Source: Streptomyces sp. NBC_01445 (GTDB lineage Bacteria; Actinomycetota; Actinomycetes; Streptomycetales; Streptomycetaceae). From it: DNA of 64,000 bases. The notes under the pieces are model-generated. The model had not been told where the DNA came from. It searched no databases and worked only from the letters and a program-made list of their open reading frames with translations. Shown in pieces: positions 4,538 through 35,220 of this stretch. The DNA lies in NCBI RefSeq assembly GCF_035918235.1, contig NZ_CP109485.1:1364001-1428000 (forward strand), read 5' to 3'. Positions within the stretch are counted from its first letter, which is position 1. Each line of letters starts with the position of its first letter. The position numbers and the translations under genes were made by a program.

Positions 4538-5509
4538 TCAGGGGACGAGGACGGACGAGCCCGTGGTGCGGCCCGCTTCCAGCGTGCGGTGCGCGGTCAC
4601 GGCGTCGTCGAGGGCGAAGCGCTGGTCGACGCGGATCCCGATGCGGCCGGCGGCGACGTGGCCGAACAGCTCCCCGGCGAGGTCGTCCCGCTCGGCCGGG
4701 TCGGCGATGTAGTCGGCAAGGGCCGGCCGGGTCACGAACAGCGAGCCGTGCCGGACCAGCTGCATCGCGTCCAGCGGCGGCACACCGGACGAGGTGCCGA
4801 AACAGACCAGCAGGCCGCGGCGGCGCAGCGAGGCCATGGACCCGGCGACCGTGTCCTTGCCGACGCTGTCGAGGACGAGCGGGACACCGGCCCCGTCGGT
4901 CAGCTCCCGCACGCGCTCCGCGACGTTCTCCTGCCGGTACAGGATGGTGTGGTCGCAGCCGTGGGCGCGGGCGAGTACGGCCTTCTCCTCGGTGGACACG
5001 GTGCCGATGACGGTGAGGCCGAGCAGCTTCGCCCACTGGCAGACGATCAGCCCCACGCCGCCCGCGGCAGCGTGCAGCAGGATCGTGTCCCCGGGCTTCA
5101 GCGGGTGGATACGGCGCAGCAGGTACGAGGCGGTGAGGCCGCGCATGGTCATGGCGGCCGCGGTCTCGCAGTCGATGCCGTCGGGGAGCCGGATCAGGGA
5201 ATCGGCGGGCATGACCCGCTCGGAGCTGTACGCGCCGAGCGGGCTGCCGGTGTACGTGACGCGGTCACCCTCGCCGACGTGAGTGACGCCCTGGCCGACG
5301 GCCTCGACGACACCGGCGGCCTCGACGCCGATTCCCGCGGGCAGCGGCGCCGGGTACAGACCGGTGCGGAAGTAGGTGTCCGCGAAGTTGAGGCCGACGG
5401 CCTCGTGCCGGACCCGGACCTCGCCGGGGCCGGGGGCGCCGACGGTGACCTCTTCGCGGCGCAGGACCTCGGGGCCGCCGGTCTCGTGGAAGCGGATGGC
5501 GTATGCCAC
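4538..5509 (-). CDS. Zinc-free MDR quinone oxidoreductase (Qor-like)
   Basis: A 323-aa NADPH-dependent medium-chain reductase. The N-terminal GroES-like fold is followed by the Rossmann segment HAAAGGVGLIVCQWAKLLG near residue 145, the quinone-oxidoreductase fingerprint. The Cys/His ligands of zinc alcohol dehydrogenases are absent. The GTG start at 5509 is preceded by GAGAG; no ATG gives a full-length protein. It lies between BKACE and the TauD dioxygenase in the same direction, with gaps of 71 and 33 bases. It probably reduces an enone or ketone in the pathway, or detoxifies a quinone or aldehyde by-product. Confidence 0.88.
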   Translation of the reverse strand: MAYAIRFHETGGPEVLRREEVTVGAPGPGEVRVRHEAVGLNFADTYFRTGLYPAPLPAGIGVEAAGVVEAVGQGVTHVGEGDRVTYTGSPLGAYSSERVMPADSLIRLPDGIDCETAAAMTMRGLTASYLLRRIHPLKPGDTILLHAAAGGVGLIVCQWAKLLGLTVIGTVSTEEKAVLARAHGCDHTILYRQENVAERVRELTDGAGVPLVLDSVGKDTVAGSMASLRRRGLLVCFGTSSGVPPLDAMQLVRHGSLFVTRPALADYIADPAERDDLAGELFGHVAAGRIGIRVDQRFALDDAVTAHRTLEAGRTTGSSVLVP

Positions 5510-27177: not shown

Positions 27178-28608
27178 TCAGCCGAAAACGTCGTACGACT
27201 GCCGGTAGATCCCGTCCGTGTGCTCACGAATGTCCCGGTACACCTCGCCGAGGCGTCGGTACAGGTCGTGGTTGGCCCGGTCGGGTGTGAACTCCGCGCC
27301 CGGGCGGACCATCGCGTCGATCGCCTCGTCGAACGACTTGTACGCGCCGAGTCCGACCGCCGCGCAGATCGCGGAGCCGAGCCCCGCCGCGTTGTTGACC
27401 TCGGCACGGTGTGCCGGGACGCCGAAGACGTCGGCGTAGATCTGCATCATCAGGTCGGAGCCGGCACCGCCGCCGGAGATGACCGTGTGCCGGTAGGTGG
27501 TGCCGAGTTCGGCGGCCATGTGCGTGCCGGTGGCGTGGATGGACAGGGCGAGCGCTTCGAGGATCGAGCGGTACATGTGGAAGCCGCCCTGGCGGCCGTC
27601 GAAGCCGAGGATCGTGCCCTTGCGGTACGGGGCGTCGGTGGGCGCCAGCCAGTCGAGCACCGTCATCAGGCCGTCGCAGCCCGGCGGGACCTTCGCGGCC
27701 TCGGCGTTCAGGTAGTCCTCGACGGACAGACCTGCCGCCCGCGCGCCTGCGACCGCCTCTTCGCCGAGCAGGTCGCGCAGCCAGCTGACCGTCCACATGC
27801 CGCGGCGCACGCCGAAGCTCTCGTAGAGGTAGGAGTGCGGCATGCAGGCGTAGTTGGTCCAGAAGTCGGAGGCGTCGGCCACGTTCCTGTCGCCGACGGT
27901 CATGCCCGCCACGTACGTGCCGAGGGAGACCAGGAGCGTGTCGCCGGAGCGCAGTCCGCAGCCCAGCGCCTCAACAGCCTTGTCGTTGGCGGTCGCCACG
28001 ACCGGCAGGCCCTCGGGGATGCCGGTGTGGCGGGCCGCGTCGGCGGTCACCGTGCCGAGGACGTCGCCCGGCATCACCAGGTCGAAGAGCATCTCGCGCG
28101 GAATGCCGGACTTGGCGAGAACGGCGTCGTCGGGCGTCCACTGCCAGGTATCGGAGTCCAACGGCCAGGAGTCGCCCGCGTAGTTGGCGGCGGTGTCCTT
28201 CAGGACGCCGGTCATGCGGTGGCTGATGTAGCCGGAGGACGTGGTGACGTACCGCGCCTCGGGGAGGGTGTGTTCGTAGGGGCGCGAGACCCGCGCGTCC
28301 ATCCAGCTCATCACCGGCTGTGCGAGTGTGCCGTCGGCCTTGAGCACGGCCCGGCAGAAGCGGATCGTGCACAGGCCGACGCCGGCGATGTCGGCCACGT
28401 CGCCGGGGAAGGCGGCCATGGCCTGGCGGCTGGCCTCTCCGATCGACGTCCACAGGTCGTCGTCCGGGTGTTCCACGACGCCGGGGCGGGGGGTGGCGTA
28501 CGGACGCAGGCTCTGCCGTCCCTCGCAGACGGCCCGGCCGTGTTCGTCGAAAACGGTCACCTTCGAGCTCTGGGAGCCGTTGTCGATGCCGATGAAGTAG
28601 CGAGTCAT
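27178..28608 (-). CDS. FGGY-family carbohydrate/polyol kinase
   Basis: A 476-aa sugar kinase that phosphorylates a sugar or sugar alcohol with ATP. The N-lobe FIGIDNGSQSSKVTVFDEHG and the C-lobe phosphate/adenosine loops VISGGGAGSDLMMQIYADVF and NNAAGLGSAICAAVGLG are diagnostic. The substrate loop MSWMDARVS resembles xylulokinase-like members but does not fix the sugar. ATG 28608 is preceded by GGAG at eight bases. It is the last gene of the operon behind the GlpP-type antiterminator, 70 bases after the FAD oxidase. Confidence 0.92.
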   Translation of the reverse strand: MTRYFIGIDNGSQSSKVTVFDEHGRAVCEGRQSLRPYATPRPGVVEHPDDDLWTSIGEASRQAMAAFPGDVADIAGVGLCTIRFCRAVLKADGTLAQPVMSWMDARVSRPYEHTLPEARYVTTSSGYISHRMTGVLKDTAANYAGDSWPLDSDTWQWTPDDAVLAKSGIPREMLFDLVMPGDVLGTVTADAARHTGIPEGLPVVATANDKAVEALGCGLRSGDTLLVSLGTYVAGMTVGDRNVADASDFWTNYACMPHSYLYESFGVRRGMWTVSWLRDLLGEEAVAGARAAGLSVEDYLNAEAAKVPPGCDGLMTVLDWLAPTDAPYRKGTILGFDGRQGGFHMYRSILEALALSIHATGTHMAAELGTTYRHTVISGGGAGSDLMMQIYADVFGVPAHRAEVNNAAGLGSAICAAVGLGAYKSFDEAIDAMVRPGAEFTPDRANHDLYRRLGEVYRDIREHTDGIYRQSYDVFG

Positions 28609-28678
28609 GGCCCACTCCGGGGTGCGAGAGAGGAGGGGGCCGCCGGGCAATGGCGGCCCCCTGCACGACAGTTGGGGA

Positions 28679-30142
28679 TCAGGCGTCGAGCGGGAAGATC
28701 GTTCCCTTGTTCATGATCCCGTTCGGGTCGAACGCCTCCTTGAGCTTGGCCAGCATGTGGTAGGCGCTGCCGTGCTCCTGCTTCGTCCACGCGGTGCGGT
28801 ACTTGCCGACGCCGTGGTGGTGGACCATCGAGCCGCCGACGCGCAGCGCCTCCTCGACGATGATCGCGTTGAGCGGCACGTGGTACTTGTCGATCTCCTC
28901 CTCCGGCTCACAGTTGATCTTGTAGTCGTAGACGAAGTAGAGGTTCGTACCCGTCTGGTAGCTGTGCGAGGAGTGGGCACCGAGCAGGGTGAGGTCGTCG
29001 GCGTGCGGGTACTCGGTGCGGATGCGGTTCATGACGGCGCCGTACAGCTCGGTGACCTTCGACCAGTCGCAGGAGACCTCGGTGGTGTAGCCGAGCTCGG
29101 CCTTGGCCCGCATGACCTCCTTCTCCGCCTCGATCTTGTCCGGGCCCCAGTTGAGGTTGTCGAACCAGGCCTCGATGAGCTTCGGGTCGACCTTCTCGTG
29201 CGCGAACTGGTCGGCGACCCGCTCGATCTCCTCGCTGGTGGCGCGCACGATGCCCTTGGGGCCCTCGGCGACGAAGACGACGACGCACTTGCCCTTCGAG
29301 AAGTGCGAGAAGTGCTGGCCGGCGTCCTCGGGCGAGTAGACGCGCACGACGGACGGCTTGAATCCGCCGACGACGACCTCGCGGATGATGGCGGTGCCCG
29401 TCGCCATGTCGTCGACGAGGAAGCCGTGGAACTCGTTGTTCCCCGGCTGGTACTTGAAGATCTTCACCGTGACCTCGGTGATGTAGCACAGGGCGCCCTC
29501 GTTGCCGATGACGATGTGCCGGATGTCCGGGCCGGTCGCGCGGCGCGGGACGTTCTTGATGCGGCTGACGGTGCCGTCGGGGAAGACCGCCTCCAGGCCG
29601 ACGACCATGTCCTCGATCGCGCCGTACAGGGTGGAGAACTGGCCGATCGAGCGCGTCGAGACGAGCCCGCCCATCTGGGCGAGCGGCTTGGACTGCGGGG
29701 AGTGCCCGGTCGTGTAGCCCTTGGCGCGCAGCGTGTCCTCGAGCACCTGGAGCTGAACGCCGCACCCGGCAGTGACCTGCATGTTCTCTTCGTCGATCTT
29801 GATGATCTCGTCGAGACCCGAGCCGTCGAGGACGATCGTGTCGGTGACGGCCGTCTCCAGGCCGCCCTCGGTGCCGGTGCGGCCTGTGCGGGCCACGATG
29901 TTGATGCGGTTCTCGTCGGCGAACGCGAGCACCTTCGATACGTCGTCCACGCTGGTGGCGTTGACGATCGCCGCGGGCGGCGGGGCGTCGTAGATGCCGT
30001 GCACCGCCTGGTACTTCTTGAAGCGGTCGACGCTCGCCTCGCGCAGCTGCTGCTCGTCGGTGACGACCGCGCCCGCGCCGACCAGGGAGGTGAGGCGGTC
30101 GACGATCTCTTCTCGGTTCAGCTTCGATGCGGACTGCACCAT
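28679..30142 (-). CDS. FAD-binding (PCMH-type) oxidase/dehydrogenase
   Basis: A 487-aa flavoenzyme of the alkyl-DHAP-synthase/D-lactate-dehydrogenase superfamily. The FAD-binding domain (residues 40-230) shows IVARTGRTGTEGG, TAGCGVQLQVLE, GHSPQSKPLAQMGGLVSTRS and the IGNEGALCYITEVTVKI strand. The C-terminal cap ends with the active-site-like GGSMVHHHGVGKYR and FDPNGIMNKG. ATG 30142 has GAAGG upstream. In the operon it lies between an SDR and a kinase, so it may oxidise a polyol, hydroxy acid or their phosphate. Electron acceptor not evident. Confidence 0.9.
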   Translation of the reverse strand: MVQSASKLNREEIVDRLTSLVGAGAVVTDEQQLREASVDRFKKYQAVHGIYDAPPPAAIVNATSVDDVSKVLAFADENRINIVARTGRTGTEGGLETAVTDTIVLDGSGLDEIIKIDEENMQVTAGCGVQLQVLEDTLRAKGYTTGHSPQSKPLAQMGGLVSTRSIGQFSTLYGAIEDMVVGLEAVFPDGTVSRIKNVPRRATGPDIRHIVIGNEGALCYITEVTVKIFKYQPGNNEFHGFLVDDMATGTAIIREVVVGGFKPSVVRVYSPEDAGQHFSHFSKGKCVVVFVAEGPKGIVRATSEEIERVADQFAHEKVDPKLIEAWFDNLNWGPDKIEAEKEVMRAKAELGYTTEVSCDWSKVTELYGAVMNRIRTEYPHADDLTLLGAHSSHSYQTGTNLYFVYDYKINCEPEEEIDKYHVPLNAIIVEEALRVGGSMVHHHGVGKYRTAWTKQEHGSAYHMLAKLKEAFDPNGIMNKGTIFPLDA

Positions 30143-30207
30143 GTGGATCAACCTTCTTTGTACGTGTGTGTGTACGTGTGGGGGCGAGGGAGAAGTGGGT
30201 GTCGGGG

Positions 30208-30984
30208 TCAGCGGACGAGATAGCCGCCGTCGACGGTCAGGACATGGCCGTTGACGTAGTCGGCGGCGCGGCTGGCGAGGAAGACGGTGGCACCCATGAG
30301 GTCGGCGACATCGCCCCAGCGGCCGGCCGGGATGTGGTCGAGGACGCGCTGGTTGGTCTCCTGGTCGGCGCGCGTCGCCTCGGTGATCTTGGTGGCGAAG
30401 TAGCCCGGGGCGATCGCGTTGACCTGGATGTTGTGCTGGGCGAGCTCGTCGCAGTACGCCTTGGTGAAGCCGGCGATGCCGTGCTTGGTGGCGGCGTACG
30501 CGGGAGACATCTGGCCGCCCAGGAACGAGAACAGGGAGGCGATGTTGATGATCTTCCCGGAGCGCTGCGGGATCATGAACTTCGTTGCCTCGTGGGCGAG
30601 TTCGAAGGGCGCGGTGAGGTTCACGGCCAGCATCGGGTCCCACGCGGCGCGGTCGAACTCCTCGACGGAGGCGAGATTGCAGATGCCCGCCGAGTTCACG
30701 AGGATGTCGACCGACCCGAGGGTGTCCACGCAAGTCTCGACGACCTGCCGGGGCACGCCGGCGCCGGTGATGTCGGCCTCGAGGAACTCCATGCGCCGGC
30801 CCTCGGCCTCGATCAGCTTGCGCGTCTCGCCGCCGTCGTCGGCGAGCGCCGGGACGAGGACGTTGGCGCCCGCCTTGGCGAGGGCGAGGGAGAACGCCTG
30901 ACCGAGGCCGGTATTGCCGCCCGTGACGATCGCGTTCTTCCCGTCGAGGGAGAAGAAGTCCCGGGAGAAGTCCGTGATGTCCAT
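30208..30984 (-). CDS. Short-chain dehydrogenase/reductase (KduD/gluconate type)
   Basis: A 258-aa classical SDR. The cofactor loop is TGGNTGLG near residue 21, the catalytic Ser lies in IINIASLFSF, and the Y-x-x-x-K is YAATK near residue 160, followed by VNAIAPGYFATKIT. The N-terminal FSLDGKNAIVTGG block resembles 2-deoxygluconate dehydrogenases. NAD(H) or NADP(H) cannot be decided. It is codirectional with the FAD oxidase 65 bases downstream and probably interconverts a sugar alcohol and ketose. Confidence 0.92.
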   Translation of the reverse strand: MDITDFSRDFFSLDGKNAIVTGGNTGLGQAFSLALAKAGANVLVPALADDGGETRKLIEAEGRRMEFLEADITGAGVPRQVVETCVDTLGSVDILVNSAGICNLASVEEFDRAAWDPMLAVNLTAPFELAHEATKFMIPQRSGKIINIASLFSFLGGQMSPAYAATKHGIAGFTKAYCDELAQHNIQVNAIAPGYFATKITEATRADQETNQRVLDHIPAGRWGDVADLMGATVFLASRAADYVNGHVLTVDGGYLVR

Positions 30985-31091
30985 GTGATGCCTGCCGATC
31001 TTCTTACTCTTCGTGACTCTTTACGAATCTTCTGAAGCTTTGTATGGATACGTTCTACGCGCTCGGGGCGATGAGTCGAAGGACCCGGCGA

Positions 31092-32402
31092 TCACACCCC
31101 TGCCGGCACTCGGTCGCTGACGGGGGCCGGGTGCCGGGCGGCGAGTTCGCGCCGGCGGGTGCGGGCGGTGAGTGTCGTCATCACCAGGCCGAGCAGTGCG
31201 GCCGCGAGCAGGAAGACGAACAGCGCGCTGTAGCCGCCACCCTGTTCGGGCACCTTCGGGCTCGCCGAGGAGTCGCCGATCCACCAGGCGCACAGGGACG
31301 GCAGGAACGCGTCCGGCAGGTACGCGATGCCGGAGGCGAGCCCGATGACGCCCCCGCGCTCCTGCTCGGGCACCTCCACCTCTCCGACCGTGGACCAGTA
31401 GACGCCGCGCGAGGCGAAGACCAGAGCGCACAGGACGAACATCATCAAGAGCGCGAGCCAGGCGAGCCCGGTGGTGCGCGGCAGTACGAGGAAGAGGCCG
31501 GCGAGCACCGCACTGCCGGCGAACATCCAGCGCAGGAACACCGCGGAGGAGCGCGTCACCTTGTCCACGACGACGCCGCCCGCGGGTCCGGCGACGAACT
31601 GGAAGACGTAGGACCGCACGACCCCGATGACGGCGATCATGGAGGCGGAGACGCCGTAGTTGTCCTGGAGCAGCGGCGAGAAGTAGCCGAGCGTCGTGTA
31701 GAAGCAGTACATGAGCATGGCGGTGCCGCCGATGAGCCAGGTGTACCGGTTGCGGGCCGCGGCGAGGAGCTGCTTGAGGGTGACGGTCGCCGAGTCGAGC
31801 CCGGCGAGCCGCGTCTTGTCCTCGCGGACGACGAACCACACGATCGCGGCGAAGACGAAGCTCAGCACTCCATAGATCCGGATCAGCGTGAGGACGCCGT
31901 GCGCGGGCACGACGGAGGCGGAGACGACCGCCGTGCCGATGAAGCCGATGGCCGTCGAGACGATGCCGCGGGTGCCTTCGAGGAAGCCGAAGAGCCGGCC
32001 CTGCTCGCCGGAGTCGCCGAGTACGCTGATCGACTTCACCAGCGCGGACCAGTACAGGCCCATGCCGACGACGGCCATCAGGATGTGCGCCGCCACGATT
32101 CCCCAGAAGCCGGGAACGGTGGCGAGATAAATGTCGGCAATTCCCATGCCGACGAGCGAAATCACGATGAGGAGTTTCGGCGAGAACTTGTCGGAGAACC
32201 AGCCGCCGAAGAAATACATGACGATGGCCACGGCGCCGAAAGCCGAGATGATGTTCCCGTACTGCTGCGAGCTGAGATTCAGCGCCGTATACGTAGGTTC
32301 GAGGTACACGAACCTGATGTAGGCGACCTGGAAAATGATTCCGCCGGTCATGGAGAGCGCGAGGAAGCTCAGCCACTTCTGGGCCTTGTTCATCCGGATC
32401 AC
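31092..32402 (-). CDS. MFS transporter, first gene behind antitermination leader
   Basis: A sugar/polyol-type facilitator of about 436 aa with twelve predicted membrane segments. The loop signature GGWFSDKFSPKLLIV occurs near residue 70 and GPAGGVVVDKVTRSS in the second half. I place the start at GTG 32402 because GAGGTGG lies five bases upstream; the ATG at 32393 has no such site. Transcription from the promoter at 32571-32600 must cross the intrinsic terminator at 32437-32479 before reaching this gene, so expression of it and the three enzyme genes should depend on antitermination. Confidence 0.9.
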   Translation of the reverse strand: MIRMNKAQKWLSFLALSMTGGIIFQVAYIRFVYLEPTYTALNLSSQQYGNIISAFGAVAIVMYFFGGWFSDKFSPKLLIVISLVGMGIADIYLATVPGFWGIVAAHILMAVVGMGLYWSALVKSISVLGDSGEQGRLFGFLEGTRGIVSTAIGFIGTAVVSASVVPAHGVLTLIRIYGVLSFVFAAIVWFVVREDKTRLAGLDSATVTLKQLLAAARNRYTWLIGGTAMLMYCFYTTLGYFSPLLQDNYGVSASMIAVIGVVRSYVFQFVAGPAGGVVVDKVTRSSAVFLRWMFAGSAVLAGLFLVLPRTTGLAWLALLMMFVLCALVFASRGVYWSTVGEVEVPEQERGGVIGLASGIAYLPDAFLPSLCAWWIGDSSASPKVPEQGGGYSALFVFLLAAALLGLVMTTLTARTRRRELAARHPAPVSDRVPAGV

Positions 32403-32436
32403 CGCAGCCACCTCGTCGTGGACAGGAAATGGGCAC

Positions 32437-32479
32437 AAAAAAAGAACAGCAAACTCCGGTGTTCGGAGGTTACTGTTCT
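32437..32479 (-). terminator. Intrinsic terminator in the leader (attenuator)
   Basis: On the minus strand AGAACAG (32479-32473), two A-U pairs and CTCCG pair with CGGAG, TT and CTGTTCT (to 32443) around a 5-base loop, followed by a run of seven U (32443-32437). A U-tailed terminator before, not after, an operon is rare in this high-GC DNA. It lies 41 bases before the MFS start. Confidence 0.85.
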
Positions 32480-32513
32480 CTGGTCTCTAGTAACTGTCCC
32501 GGCTCGAGGCCGG
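32469..32513 (-). promoter_or_regulatory. Candidate antiterminator stem and upstream hairpin
   Basis: GTTACT (32494-32489) can pair with AGTAAC (32474-32469). The second arm uses bases of the terminator's ascending stem, so the two structures exclude each other. A separate hairpin CCGGC/GCCGG (32499-32513) lies just before. The pattern fits an RNA site stabilised by a GlpP-type protein, by analogy with other antitermination systems. Confidence 0.5.
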
Positions 32514-32570
32514 AACCTTTATTTGATTGTCGCGCCCGTGGCCATGACATGAACTTCGGGTGCGTTCGCC

Positions 32571-32600
32571 ATGCTAGGCAGGGCCGATCGGCAGTGTCAA
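32571..32600 (-). promoter_or_regulatory. Near-consensus sigma-70-type promoter
   Basis: Minus strand TTGACA (32600-32595), 18-base spacer, TAGCAT (32576-32571). The spacer contains the palindrome GCCGATCGGC (32583-32592), a possible operator. It starts a leader of about 160 nt before the MFS gene, downstream of the GlpP-type gene. Confidence 0.7.
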
Positions 32601-32638
32601 TAGAGTCAGGCGTCACATTCCCTTACACGGCCGGACGC

Positions 32639-33205
32639 CTACATGGCCCACACATCACGATTCGACGAGGCTATGGCCGCGGCTCCTGCCTTCAGCGCGG
32701 CGAACACATCCTCGCGGTCGCACACGAGCCCGCCCGCTATGAGAGGCACCTCGATGTCCTGCACGGCCCAGGAGATGACCCGCGGCATGCAGCCCGGCAG
32801 GATCTCCACGCAGTCGGCCTTGGACTGGCGCACCTGCGGTGCGAGATTGCGGTACGACTTCGAGTCGATCAGGAAGAACCGGTGGACGGCGAACAGGCCG
32901 ACCTCGCGGGCGGCCCGCACCATGTGCGCCTTGGAGCTGAGCACCCCGTCGGCGGAGGTGTGCTCCTTCACGTACTGCACCACGATGTCCTTGCCGCTGA
33001 ACCCTTCGAGCAGGTCCACATTGACCAGGACGACCTTGCCGCTGTCCTTGAGCTGCTGCACGATCGTCGGGAGGTTCAGCAGGGACCCGTAGAGCAGGAA
33101 GACGACCTTGCACTCGGAGTCCATGACGGCGCGCAGCCCGTCGTCGTCGATGACACTGGCGACGACCGGGTGGTCCTCCAGGAGGACCGGAAGTGACACG
33201 TCCAC
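32639..33205 (-). CDS. GlpP-family antiterminator-like protein
   Basis: A 188-aa TIM-barrel-like protein of the glycerol-3-phosphate-responsive antiterminator family. The characteristic end EILPGCMPRVISWAVQD followed by PLIAGGLV, EDVFAALKAGAAAIASS is present, as are VNVDLLEGFSGKD and DGVLSSKAHMV. In Bacillus subtilis GlpP binds glycerol-3-phosphate and lets RNA polymerase read through leader terminators of glp genes. GTG 33205 has GGGAGGT six bases upstream. It lies directly upstream of a leader with promoter, terminator and competing stem, whose operon it likely controls. The inducer is probably a phosphorylated polyol made by the operon's kinase (inference). Confidence 0.93.
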   Translation of the reverse strand: MDVSLPVLLEDHPVVASVIDDDGLRAVMDSECKVVFLLYGSLLNLPTIVQQLKDSGKVVLVNVDLLEGFSGKDIVVQYVKEHTSADGVLSSKAHMVRAAREVGLFAVHRFFLIDSKSYRNLAPQVRQSKADCVEILPGCMPRVISWAVQDIEVPLIAGGLVCDREDVFAALKAGAAAIASSNRDVWAM

Positions 33206-33358: not shown

Positions 33359-34123
33359 TCACACCGGTGACGTGGCCGCCCCGCCGAGATGCCGGACGAA
33401 GAAGTGCACCGCGCTGTCGGCCTCGAACCTGGGCAGTTCCTTGTGCCGGCCCGCGTTGGCGTGCAGCGTCTTGTCCTGCGAGGCGAAGGCGTCGAACAGC
33501 GCGAGTCCGGACTCGCGGGGGATATGCTCGTCGTTCCACTGGAGCGCGAACTCGATCGGAACGGTGATCTGCTTCGCCGCCTGGGCCAGGGTCTCGGGCC
33601 AGAAGAGACCGAAGACCGCGGCGGTGATCCTGGGTTCGACCGCCGTCAGCGGCACACCGATCGCGGTGCCCATGTTCAGGCCGAAGTAGCCGACCGGCCC
33701 GTCGGTGCCGATCTGCGGGAGTTCCTGGAGGGCGTCCAGGGTCGCCTGCCACTCCGGCACGGCGCGCTCCGCCAGGTGGGCGTTGTACCGCTGGACGATC
33801 GGGCCGACCGGTTCGCCCGCCGCCATCGCCTGCTGCATCACGGCGATCTCGCGCTCGTCGTGGGCCGTACGGGGGCGGCCGCCGTGCCCGGGTGCGTCGA
33901 TGGTGGCGACGTGGAATCCGCCGCCCGCCACGAGCCGCTGGGCCCGGCCGGCCATGGCCGGTGACTTCCTGTGGTTGCCGCCGCCGTGGCCCATCAGCAC
34001 GAGCGGCGCACGGTCGGAGCCGGGGGCCGGCGACCAGAGCGCGCCGGTGACCTCACCCACGGTGAAGTCGCGCTCCACGACACCGTTCGACGATGTCTGC
34101 GCGGTGAATTGAACAGAGTTCAT
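33359..34123 (-). CDS. Alpha/beta-hydrolase-fold protein lacking the nucleophile Ser
   Basis: A 254-aa dienelactone-hydrolase-like protein. The oxyanion block LVLMGHGGGNHRKSP, the IDAPGHGGRP loop, the Asp region FALQWNDEHIPRESGLALFDAF and a late His are all intact. At the nucleophile elbow, where relatives read GLSMGT, it reads YFGLNMGTAIG: the serine codon is AAC (Asn). Hydrolytic activity is therefore doubtful unless another residue serves. ATG 34123 begins 55 bases after a 17-codon ORF. No signal peptide. Monocistronic with its own terminator. Confidence 0.85.
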   Translation of the reverse strand: MNSVQFTAQTSSNGVVERDFTVGEVTGALWSPAPGSDRAPLVLMGHGGGNHRKSPAMAGRAQRLVAGGGFHVATIDAPGHGGRPRTAHDEREIAVMQQAMAAGEPVGPIVQRYNAHLAERAVPEWQATLDALQELPQIGTDGPVGYFGLNMGTAIGVPLTAVEPRITAAVFGLFWPETLAQAAKQITVPIEFALQWNDEHIPRESGLALFDAFASQDKTLHANAGRHKELPRFEADSAVHFFVRHLGGAATSPV

Positions 34124-34320: not shown

Positions 34321-35088
34321 TCAGGCGTTGGGGTCGAACGGTATGCCGGCCGGCTCGGCCTTCTCGAGGTGGTAGTTGAAGTTGCCGTCCTTGAGGCCGA
34401 AGACCGCGCTGCCGAAGTCTGCCTGGCTGAGCTTCTCCCGCAGGCCCGAGGGGTAGCCGTTCCAACCGACGAGGGTCGGGAACTGCCAGGTGTGGCGGTG
34501 GTTCTCCGGCGGCTCGTCGTTGGCGGTCGCGGGGCGGAAGCAGTGCGTGCCCAGGCCGTCCTTGTGGTAGACGGCCTTGGGGTGGGTGCCGTCCCAGCGG
34601 ATCTGGTCACGGCCGTAGACATTGAAGTTGCCGTGCGCCGAGGTGGAGACGTACTTGGCCTCGTTGTCCTGCACCCACACCACGACGTGCTCCCAGTCGT
34701 TGCGGTGCCCGCCGAGACCGCTGCCCGCGACGGCCTGGTCCTTCTCGAAGTACAGGCCGTACATGATGGCGCACCAGCCGTTGTTGCACTTGGAGCGGGA
34801 GTATCCGTTGGTGCTGTCGAGGTCCCAGGAGTCGTGGCACTGGCCGTTGACGGCCCCGGACGGGTTGAGGCCGGGGTTGATGGTGCCGTCGGGGCCGATC
34901 GCGGGCGTCGGGTAGCAGCCGTCACCGTCGTAGTCGTAGGCCGGCTGGAACGTCTGCTCCAGGCCGTCCGCGTTGGCGGGCAGCGCCGGGGGCGGGTCCG
35001 CGAGCGCGATGCCCGGGAAAACGATGACCAGCGCGACGGCGCTGCCGAGGGTGAGTGCCGCTCTGCTGATCCGCGAGCTCTTCTTCAC
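34321..35088 (-). CDS. Secreted NPP1/necrosis-inducing-like (NLP) protein
   Basis: A 255-aa exported protein. A signal peptide (residues 1-31, Lys/Arg start, hydrophobic core, cleavage after ALA) precedes an NPP1 domain with AYDYDGDGCYP near residue 49 and the hallmark heptapeptide as GHRNDWE near 126; the usual form is GHRHDWE. The His, Asp and Glu that bind the metal in plant-toxic NLPs are kept; only the second His is Asn. The C-terminal block HTWQFPTLVGWNGYP is family-typical. GTG 35088 has AGGAGGA five bases upstream. NLPs bind plant sphingolipids; a role on plant or microbial membranes is possible. Confidence 0.9.
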   Translation of the reverse strand: MKKSSRISRAALTLGSAVALVIVFPGIALADPPPALPANADGLEQTFQPAYDYDGDGCYPTPAIGPDGTINPGLNPSGAVNGQCHDSWDLDSTNGYSRSKCNNGWCAIMYGLYFEKDQAVAGSGLGGHRNDWEHVVVWVQDNEAKYVSTSAHGNFNVYGRDQIRWDGTHPKAVYHKDGLGTHCFRPATANDEPPENHRHTWQFPTLVGWNGYPSGLREKLSQADFGSAVFGLKDGNFNYHLEKAEPAGIPFDPNA

Positions 35089-35220
35089 TGCGTCCTCCTG
35101 ATGAACCGTGGGGGGTGGGACACGCGCGACCGAATCTGGCATGCCCTCGTCATCATCCACGCCTCAGCTGCCCAGCGGACCCCAGCTGCGTGGCGCAATG
35201 ATGAAGAGTCCGTGCCGTCG

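Follow-up and report, generated by a model that had tools for sequence, protein, structure and literature searches.

The stretch of DNA analyzed here (the window) comprises 64,000 nucleotides of Streptomyces sp. NBC_01445 (contig NZ_CP109485.1, positions 1,364,001 to 1,428,000 of the forward strand). On its minus strand, a gene for a GlpP-family protein is followed by genes for an MFS (major facilitator superfamily) transporter, an SDR (short-chain dehydrogenase/reductase), an FAD-linked oxidase and an FGGY-family kinase. The leader between the GlpP gene and the MFS gene contains an RNA element, a small hairpin that overlaps an intrinsic terminator. This element, and its putative role as the target of the GlpP-family protein, are the subject of this study. 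The features are as follows:

32639 to 33205, minus strand: gene for a putative YgcP-type GlpP-family (PF04309) antiterminator protein, GTG start, assigned by its PF04309 match
32571 to 32600, minus strand: promoter TTGACA-N18-TAGCAT, a sequence match whose layout recurs in actinobacterial leaders
32496 to 32516, minus strand: GC-rich hairpin GTTCCGGC-loop-GCCGGGAC, a predicted fold that adjoins the element upstream
32469 to 32494, minus strand: predicted antiterminator hairpin with GTTACT (32494-32489), loop AGAGACCAGAGAAC (32488-32475) and AGTAAC (32474-32469), supported by conservation and covariation
32437 to 32480, minus strand: predicted intrinsic terminator with a 12 + 5 bp stem and a U-run at 32443-32437, from fold and T-run
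31092 to 32393, minus strand: MFS transporter, first gene of the operon (PF07690; alternative GTG start at 32402)
30208 to 30984, minus strand: SDR dehydrogenase, KduD-like (under the NCBIfam cut-off), 68% identical to E. coli YgcW
28679 to 30088, minus strand: FAD-linked oxidase, 64% identical to E. coli YgcU
27178 to 28608, minus strand: FGGY-family kinase, 51% identical to E. coli YgcE

The regulator gene encodes a protein that matches PF04309 over its full length (200.6 bits, cut-off 27, positions 1-173 of 173). Its sequence is related to those of the solved GlpP-type proteins 3kts and 1vkf and 48% identical to that of E. coli YgcP, and the nearest named locus is that of Streptomyces sp. 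CB01635 (L008), with a GlpP that is 99% identical. With an FAD oxidase, an SDR, an FGGY kinase and a YgcP-type regulator, the window carries the ygc (YgcP) gene set. NCBIfam yields only sub-cut-off matches for the operon enzymes, and the kinase scores under the GlpK cut-off. Control of the operon by glycerol was considered and rejected, as glp genes are absent and genes for MFS, SDR, FAD oxidase and FGGY proteins are found instead of glpF, glpK and glpD.

In the leader, the 5′ arm of the terminator includes the second GAGA repeat of the hairpin loop and the 3′ arm of the antiterminator hairpin. The 136-nt stretch 32430-32565 has a predicted folding energy of -50.5 kcal/mol (z -4.74), and none of 200 shuffled sequences was as stable. 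The promoter is weak evidence when taken alone, with one site found in the window leader and 0.5 expected in shuffled sequences. For each element, the 140 nt upstream were searched for TTGAC followed by TAnnnT at 16-19 nt. Of the 11 actinobacterial leaders (window included), 10 have TTGACA/TAnnnT with a spacer of 17-18 nt at 61-93 nt before the stem; upstream of the S. clavuligerus element (L135), the pattern was not found within these 140 nt. Among the other elements, 13 of 19 are preceded by a promoter with a 17-nt spacer that lies only 6-14 nt before the stem, so that the hairpin would form the very 5′ end of the RNA. No such pattern was found within 140 nt of the two E. coli copies, of three Enterococcus copies directly after glpP, and of one copy in L119.

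A first-pass annotation, made from the letters of the window alone, had placed a GlpP-family gene directly upstream of an MFS-SDR-FAD oxidase-FGGY kinase operon, which Pfam matches and strand bear out, and had described the leader in some detail. The promoter is present at 32571-32600, in the layout just described; the claim of a strong intrinsic terminator with a U-run agrees with the folding statistics; and the competing stem of 32494-32489 with 32474-32469 is exactly there, with covariation in relatives. The distance of 41 bases from terminator to first gene has to be corrected: counted from the U-run, it is 43 nt to the ATG at 32393 and 34 nt to the alternative GTG at 32402.

Scanning a species-level genome collection with the GlpP protein led to 21 loci. 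Nine of the ten loci from Streptomyces and Nocardiopsis (L008-L017) carry the exact loop AGAGACCAGAGA shortly after the GlpP gene; the exception, L014, has a compensated stem variant, GTTGCT/AGCAAC. The exact loop also precedes a divergent MFS gene in Enterococcus xiangfangensis (L022). Variants of the element are present in spirochaetes, in a Bacillus and in other Firmicutes, and in the Enterococcus loci and L121 one element is divergent from glpP. Behind the element, as judged by mapping the window and E. coli ygc proteins, lie genes for MFS, SDR, FAD oxidase and FGGY kinase proteins in shuffled order, with electron-transfer flavoprotein subunit genes added in several non-actinobacterial loci. 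An MFS homologue follows the element in 8 of the 10 other mapped actinobacterial loci, and is absent in L015 and L135. One fragmented spirochaete genome has the element on three contigs (before an MFS gene, before SDR-FAD oxidase-kinase genes and before flavoprotein genes), so that the regulator would act in trans. In L133, GTTAC-GAGAGCTGAGAGAGA-GTAAC with promoter and terminator precedes an MFS gene (5077-5133, minus strand). This sequence is divergent from a strong copy, overlaps no other element, and is probably a third copy, although it has only an opposite-strand match of 23.6 bits to the covariance model R1 described below.

Escherichia coli K-12 MG1655 has the same gene set and carries the element twice between ygcW and yqcE, as back-to-back copies that each have a terminator of their own. 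A match covering at least 80% of this intergenic region is present in 4998 of 5426 complete E. coli genomes. In contrast to the window, the E. coli operons (ygcS-ygcU-ygcW and yqcE-ygcE) are divergent and include the flavoproteins YgcQ and YgcR, and ygcP is apart from its presumed targets. The K-12 record annotates the ygc genes merely as putative and the RNA element not at all. The first-pass annotation had proposed a comparison of leaders in relatives, and terminator and overlapping hairpin are indeed kept beside homologous genes; its idea that the arrangement is special to a high-GC actinomycete does not stand, since the same element and gene set are found in E. coli K-12, Firmicutes and spirochaetes. 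In the GlpP tree, Nocardiopsis is nested among Streptomyces (support 97/98), and this nesting, together with the presence of the element in so few Streptomyces-genus genomes (see below), suggests horizontal transfer.

In a set of 23 elements, 21 of them distinct (A5), 95.2% of the cells of the antiterminator stem are paired, and four of its seven pairs have two-sided changes. The stem reaches a covariation score of 0.339, compared with a mean of 0.199 for shuffles, and none of 500 shuffles, which ignore kinship, was as high; slid controls reach at most 0.124, and an earlier count on 18 rows agrees. As the left arm of the stem is outside the terminator, the covariation directly supports selection on the antiterminator itself. 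In 25 elements, the isolated hairpin fragment has a computed energy of -1.4 to -10.0 kcal/mol, versus -10.9 to -29.6 kcal/mol for the terminator (with L018, at -4.1, as exception). The hairpin being weaker than the terminator, the default state is predicted to be off, and a stabilizing protein would switch it on.

To quantify co-occurrence, we used a covariance model, R1, built from 18 elements (L012 is not in the underlying alignment A1, and L018 was held out), and counted matches at E<=0.001; the large genome scans ran with stricter filters, which lose weak matches. The window hairpin, itself a seed, scores 67.1 bits. In the genus Streptomyces, R1 matches 6 of 295 genomes, exactly those six with a GlpP of 193-200 bits. 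PF04309 is above cut-off in 19 of the 295 genomes; 13 of these carry only a second subtype of 134-142 bits, and one of the six carries both. Only 2 of 61 Bacillales genomes have an R1 match, although 56 of the 61 have PF04309, and no glp leader was found among the 61 at this threshold. Matches were also seen in a single genome, that of the window itself, among 296 sampled from the class, in 3 of 148 genomes of the Enterococcus order (two of them new), in 2 of 149 genomes of the spirochaete phylum, and in five of nine genomes reached via other loci. The non-seed matches (L018, L122, L123, second copies in L119 and L120, three in L133, L134, L135 and two in L138) lie within ygc gene sets; that of S. 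clavuligerus pSCL4 (L135) reaches 72.2 bits, and the two of E. raffinosus (L138) resemble the Enterococcus seeds. Weak opposite-strand matches that overlap a strong element (e.g. in L121, 24.3 bits) were attributed to the palindromic sequence of the terminator.

Tandem GAGA repeats are also seen in leaders of the classical glp system in Bacillales. The part of PMC9604022 that concerns the B. subtilis glp 5′ UTR describes a promoter, a GlpP binding site and a terminator. B. subtilis GlpP and its glpD, glpFK and glpT leaders thus resemble the window in the PF04309 protein and in the promoter-site-terminator layout. Our alignment of 19 leaders downstream of classical glpP genes in Bacillales (A2, without the false leader matches L043:2551 and L055; B. 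subtilis is not among the named sequences) shows the motif AGTTAAT..GTGA-CGGAGA-NNN-GGAGA-NCCAC before the terminator. These leaders also present tandem GAGA repeats, and the claim there is limited to the tandem-repeat motif, because the closing stem is shorter and less certain (at least 4 bp in 14 of 19 leaders, by a permissive count that includes chance pairings). The window leader does not have the classical motif, but a sister motif, CT-AGAGNNNAGAGAA-AG, with tandem purine repeats and a different sequence and closing stem, different target genes and a protein on a separate branch. A single element model for ygc and glp leaders was rejected, since R1 does not find the glp leaders.

The proteins are split in parallel. 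In a GlpP tree of 57 rows (22 without a motif label; the near-duplicates L008, L025, L034 and L060 left out), 17 ygc-type and 18 glp-type rows fall on opposite sides of a branch with support 99/97, and the window GlpP falls with the element-bearing loci. Many positions are shared between the groups, and nine differ in at least 15 of 17 ygc-type and at least 15 of 18 glp-type rows, among them His108/Gln, Lys72/Asp, Trp146/Glu and Cys162/Arg. A parallel split of RNA motif and protein is expected of a protein-RNA pair, but shared ancestry alone could also produce it, because motif labels and proteins come from the same loci. The effector of the window GlpP may differ from glycerol-3-phosphate. 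Two GlpP genes outside both main classes (L032 and L061) have related leaders directly downstream (TTGCTAGAGATAAAAGAG.. and AAGGTAGAGACGTGGAGACACCTT, respectively).

The leaders thus hold two mutually exclusive structures that are conserved across phyla, with a covarying hairpin that is linked to one GlpP subtype and one gene set. These features speak for a protein-controlled transcription antitermination switch, consisting of a YgcP-type GlpP and a hairpin that competes with a terminator, and we put the probability of this interpretation at about 85%. The first-pass annotation had already suggested GlpP-type antitermination of a non-glp operon, a suggestion that conservation, covariation and co-occurrence now strongly support. 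In the scheme that we infer, which extends to protein binding, effector identity, termination in vivo and induction, RNA polymerase would start at the promoter (32600-32571). In the absence of inducer, the strong terminator (32480-32437) would form, and transcription would stop before the catabolic genes. In the presence of effector, YgcP-type GlpP would bind the tandem AGAG/GAGA repeats in the loop of the hairpin (32494-32469) and stabilize this weak structure. Since the 3′ arm of the hairpin and the second GAGA repeat also start the terminator, the terminator could then not form, and the MFS-SDR-FAD oxidase-kinase genes would be transcribed.

Several observations weigh against this interpretation or narrow its support. 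The six Streptomyces-genus matches are seeds of R1 (the window, L009, L013 and L014) or near-copies of seeds (L008 and L012), so the test in this genus lies in the absence of the element from the 289 other genomes. Likewise, both Bacillales matches (L021 and L042) are seeds, and the informative half of that result is the absence elsewhere. In the 13 Streptomyces-genus genomes that carry only the second GlpP subtype, no R1 match was found at the threshold used, which indicates that not every GlpP-family protein uses the element; the notion that all Streptomyces GlpP genes do so was rejected for this reason. By one measure of covariation, the number of further pair types, the elements (8) do no better than shuffles (7.7; 299 of 500). 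The computed terminator of L018 is weaker than its hairpin, probably because the calculation stopped at an early T-run, and the predicted fold of the L015 fragment differs from the antiterminator. Finally, the model does not explain the extra stretch and extra GC hairpin of actinobacterial leaders. These leaders have in common an ACAATC-CATAT block and the GC-rich hairpin immediately upstream of the element (32496-32530 in the window), and inverted repeats like that hairpin are visible by eye in several of them.

The second GlpP subtype occurs in 14 Streptomyces-genus genomes (L003, L072-L083 and L086). At two of these loci, inspected by eye, the GlpP gene lies between an FAD oxidase gene and genes for small monooxygenase-like and zinc-dehydrogenase-like proteins. 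Five loci were fetched with up to about 8 kb of upstream sequence (one shorter); they contain neither an R1 match nor a tandem-GAG hairpin, with the proviso that the true leader may be missed, and three of them have T-runs several kb upstream of glpP. Divergent GlpP-family genes also lie beside FGGY kinase-SDR-2-hydroxyacid dehydrogenase-PTS (phosphotransferase system) genes in Klebsiella pneumoniae (L136) and beside an FAD oxidase gene in Cupriavidus (L137), and neither locus has a significant R1 match. In two metagenome-assembled genomes (MAGs) of Firmicutes/Clostridia, a hairpin GACGGC-AGAGAAGATGAGAA-GCCGGC with a terminator is found about 3 kb upstream of divergent GlpP genes (L026 at 4192 and L028 at 4867), possibly another class of GlpP target.

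Hairpin-versus-terminator logic is not peculiar to GlpP, but common to BglG/LicT and ANTAR systems, and the element might be bound by an unrelated regulator of this kind, or be a ligand-sensing riboswitch, with the GlpP gene as a bystander. BglG and LicT stabilize a weak hairpin (ribonucleic antiterminator, RAT) that overlaps a strong terminator, much as proposed for the window, but the protein family is a different one. ANTAR target RNAs consist of two small hexaloop stems, whereas the element here is a single hairpin with a 14-nt loop. The shared feature is an antiterminator that excludes a terminator, as set out for ANTAR systems in PMC3369936. PF04309 was the sole regulator domain in a Pfam scan of eight proteins around the operon, with no PRD/CAT or ANTAR domain among them (regulators elsewhere in the genomes were not searched). 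Rfam has no family at gathering score in the window leader (sub-threshold mir-6 only), and a single match, sok, in six other loci, outside their leaders. With its small size and near-invariance, the loop does not resemble a typical metabolite pocket. As the presence of the element also tracks one GlpP subtype per genome, and the motif class follows the GlpP tree, we consider an unrelated regulator or a riboswitch improbable.

A role of GlpP in mRNA stability or translation, instead of or in addition to termination, is also unlikely, if slightly less so. It draws on a B. subtilis study which, by its title, reportedly assigns to leader and GlpP a dual role in glpD expression, antitermination and mRNA stability. 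However, the leaders examined keep a U-run terminator that overlaps the hairpin and would be superfluous for stability control alone. The least credible alternative is that hairpin and U-run are a plain glpP terminator without regulated read-through, and that the operon is transcribed from an internal downstream promoter. The terminator does sit between glpP and the next gene in Streptomyces, but the E. coli copies lie between divergent genes, far from ygcP, and therefore cannot be the ygcP terminator. Enterococcus and L121, too, have an element divergent from glpP; covariation links the right arm to a left arm that has no use in termination; and most leaders have a promoter before the element. 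A simple glpP terminator was therefore rejected, as neither the E. coli copies nor one copy per Enterococcus locus are downstream of glpP.

By analogy with glycerol-3-phosphate and GlpP, the effector of the antitermination switch is probably a phosphorylated intermediate made by the operon's own kinase. The first-pass annotation had favored a polyol phosphate, which our comparison does not support. Transporters vary among homologous clusters: MFS proteins, a BCCT protein in a Firmicutes cluster, and an OpuAC-type (glycine betaine) ABC operon in an Enterococcus cluster, so that a plain polyol substrate should not be assumed. This variation hints at a betaine-like or other osmolyte-like substrate. 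In a Firmicutes MAG (L120, 4711-4774, minus strand), a copy of the element heads the gene for the BCCT (betaine/carnitine/choline) transporter. For S. clavuligerus, glycerol metabolism is reported to be GylR-regulated (PMC9732521).

Two further genes lie upstream of the GlpP gene in the window, on the same strand. Immediately upstream is a gene for a 254-aa protein (33359-34123) that looks hydrolase-like by eye; it has no Pfam or NCBIfam match and no homologue at E<=1e-8 in the other mapped loci. It is preceded by a gene of the NPP1 family (necrosis-inducing protein, NLP-like; PF05630, 201.9 bits, 34321-35160).

GlpP antitermination in Bacillus is already known, and our best call is that what is new here is an RNA-element class and a regulon for a known kind of regulator. 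In the open-access literature, we found no description of this element or regulon and nothing on the function of the ygc genes, and a term search of the accessible parts of PMC2965389 and PMC7815308 did not find the ygc gene names. A published account of the glp-type motif may exist, as the subscription literature, including the original B. subtilis leader studies, lay outside the search.

With moderate confidence, we propose that the GlpP family is a broad family of effector-gated RNA-binding antiterminators that may read a code of two GAG(A) repeats in a hairpin loop, with subfamilies that pair with their own hairpins and effectors. The YgcP regulon would have spread with its catabolic genes over Actinomycetota, Bacillota, Spirochaetota and Enterobacteria including E. 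coli K-12, and its effector would be the phosphorylated product of a possibly betaine- or osmolyte-like substrate, not glycerol-3-phosphate. The GlpP family would gain a second class of RNA target, and the two element classes, which follow the protein tree, define by comparison what the protein probably reads. From the analysis, we predict that E. coli K-12 has an antitermination regulon as yet unannotated (ygcW-ygcU-ygcS and yqcE-ygcE), in which the switch is directly testable. The analysis also points a way towards the inducer and substrate of a catabolic pathway that is widely scattered and functionally uncharacterized.

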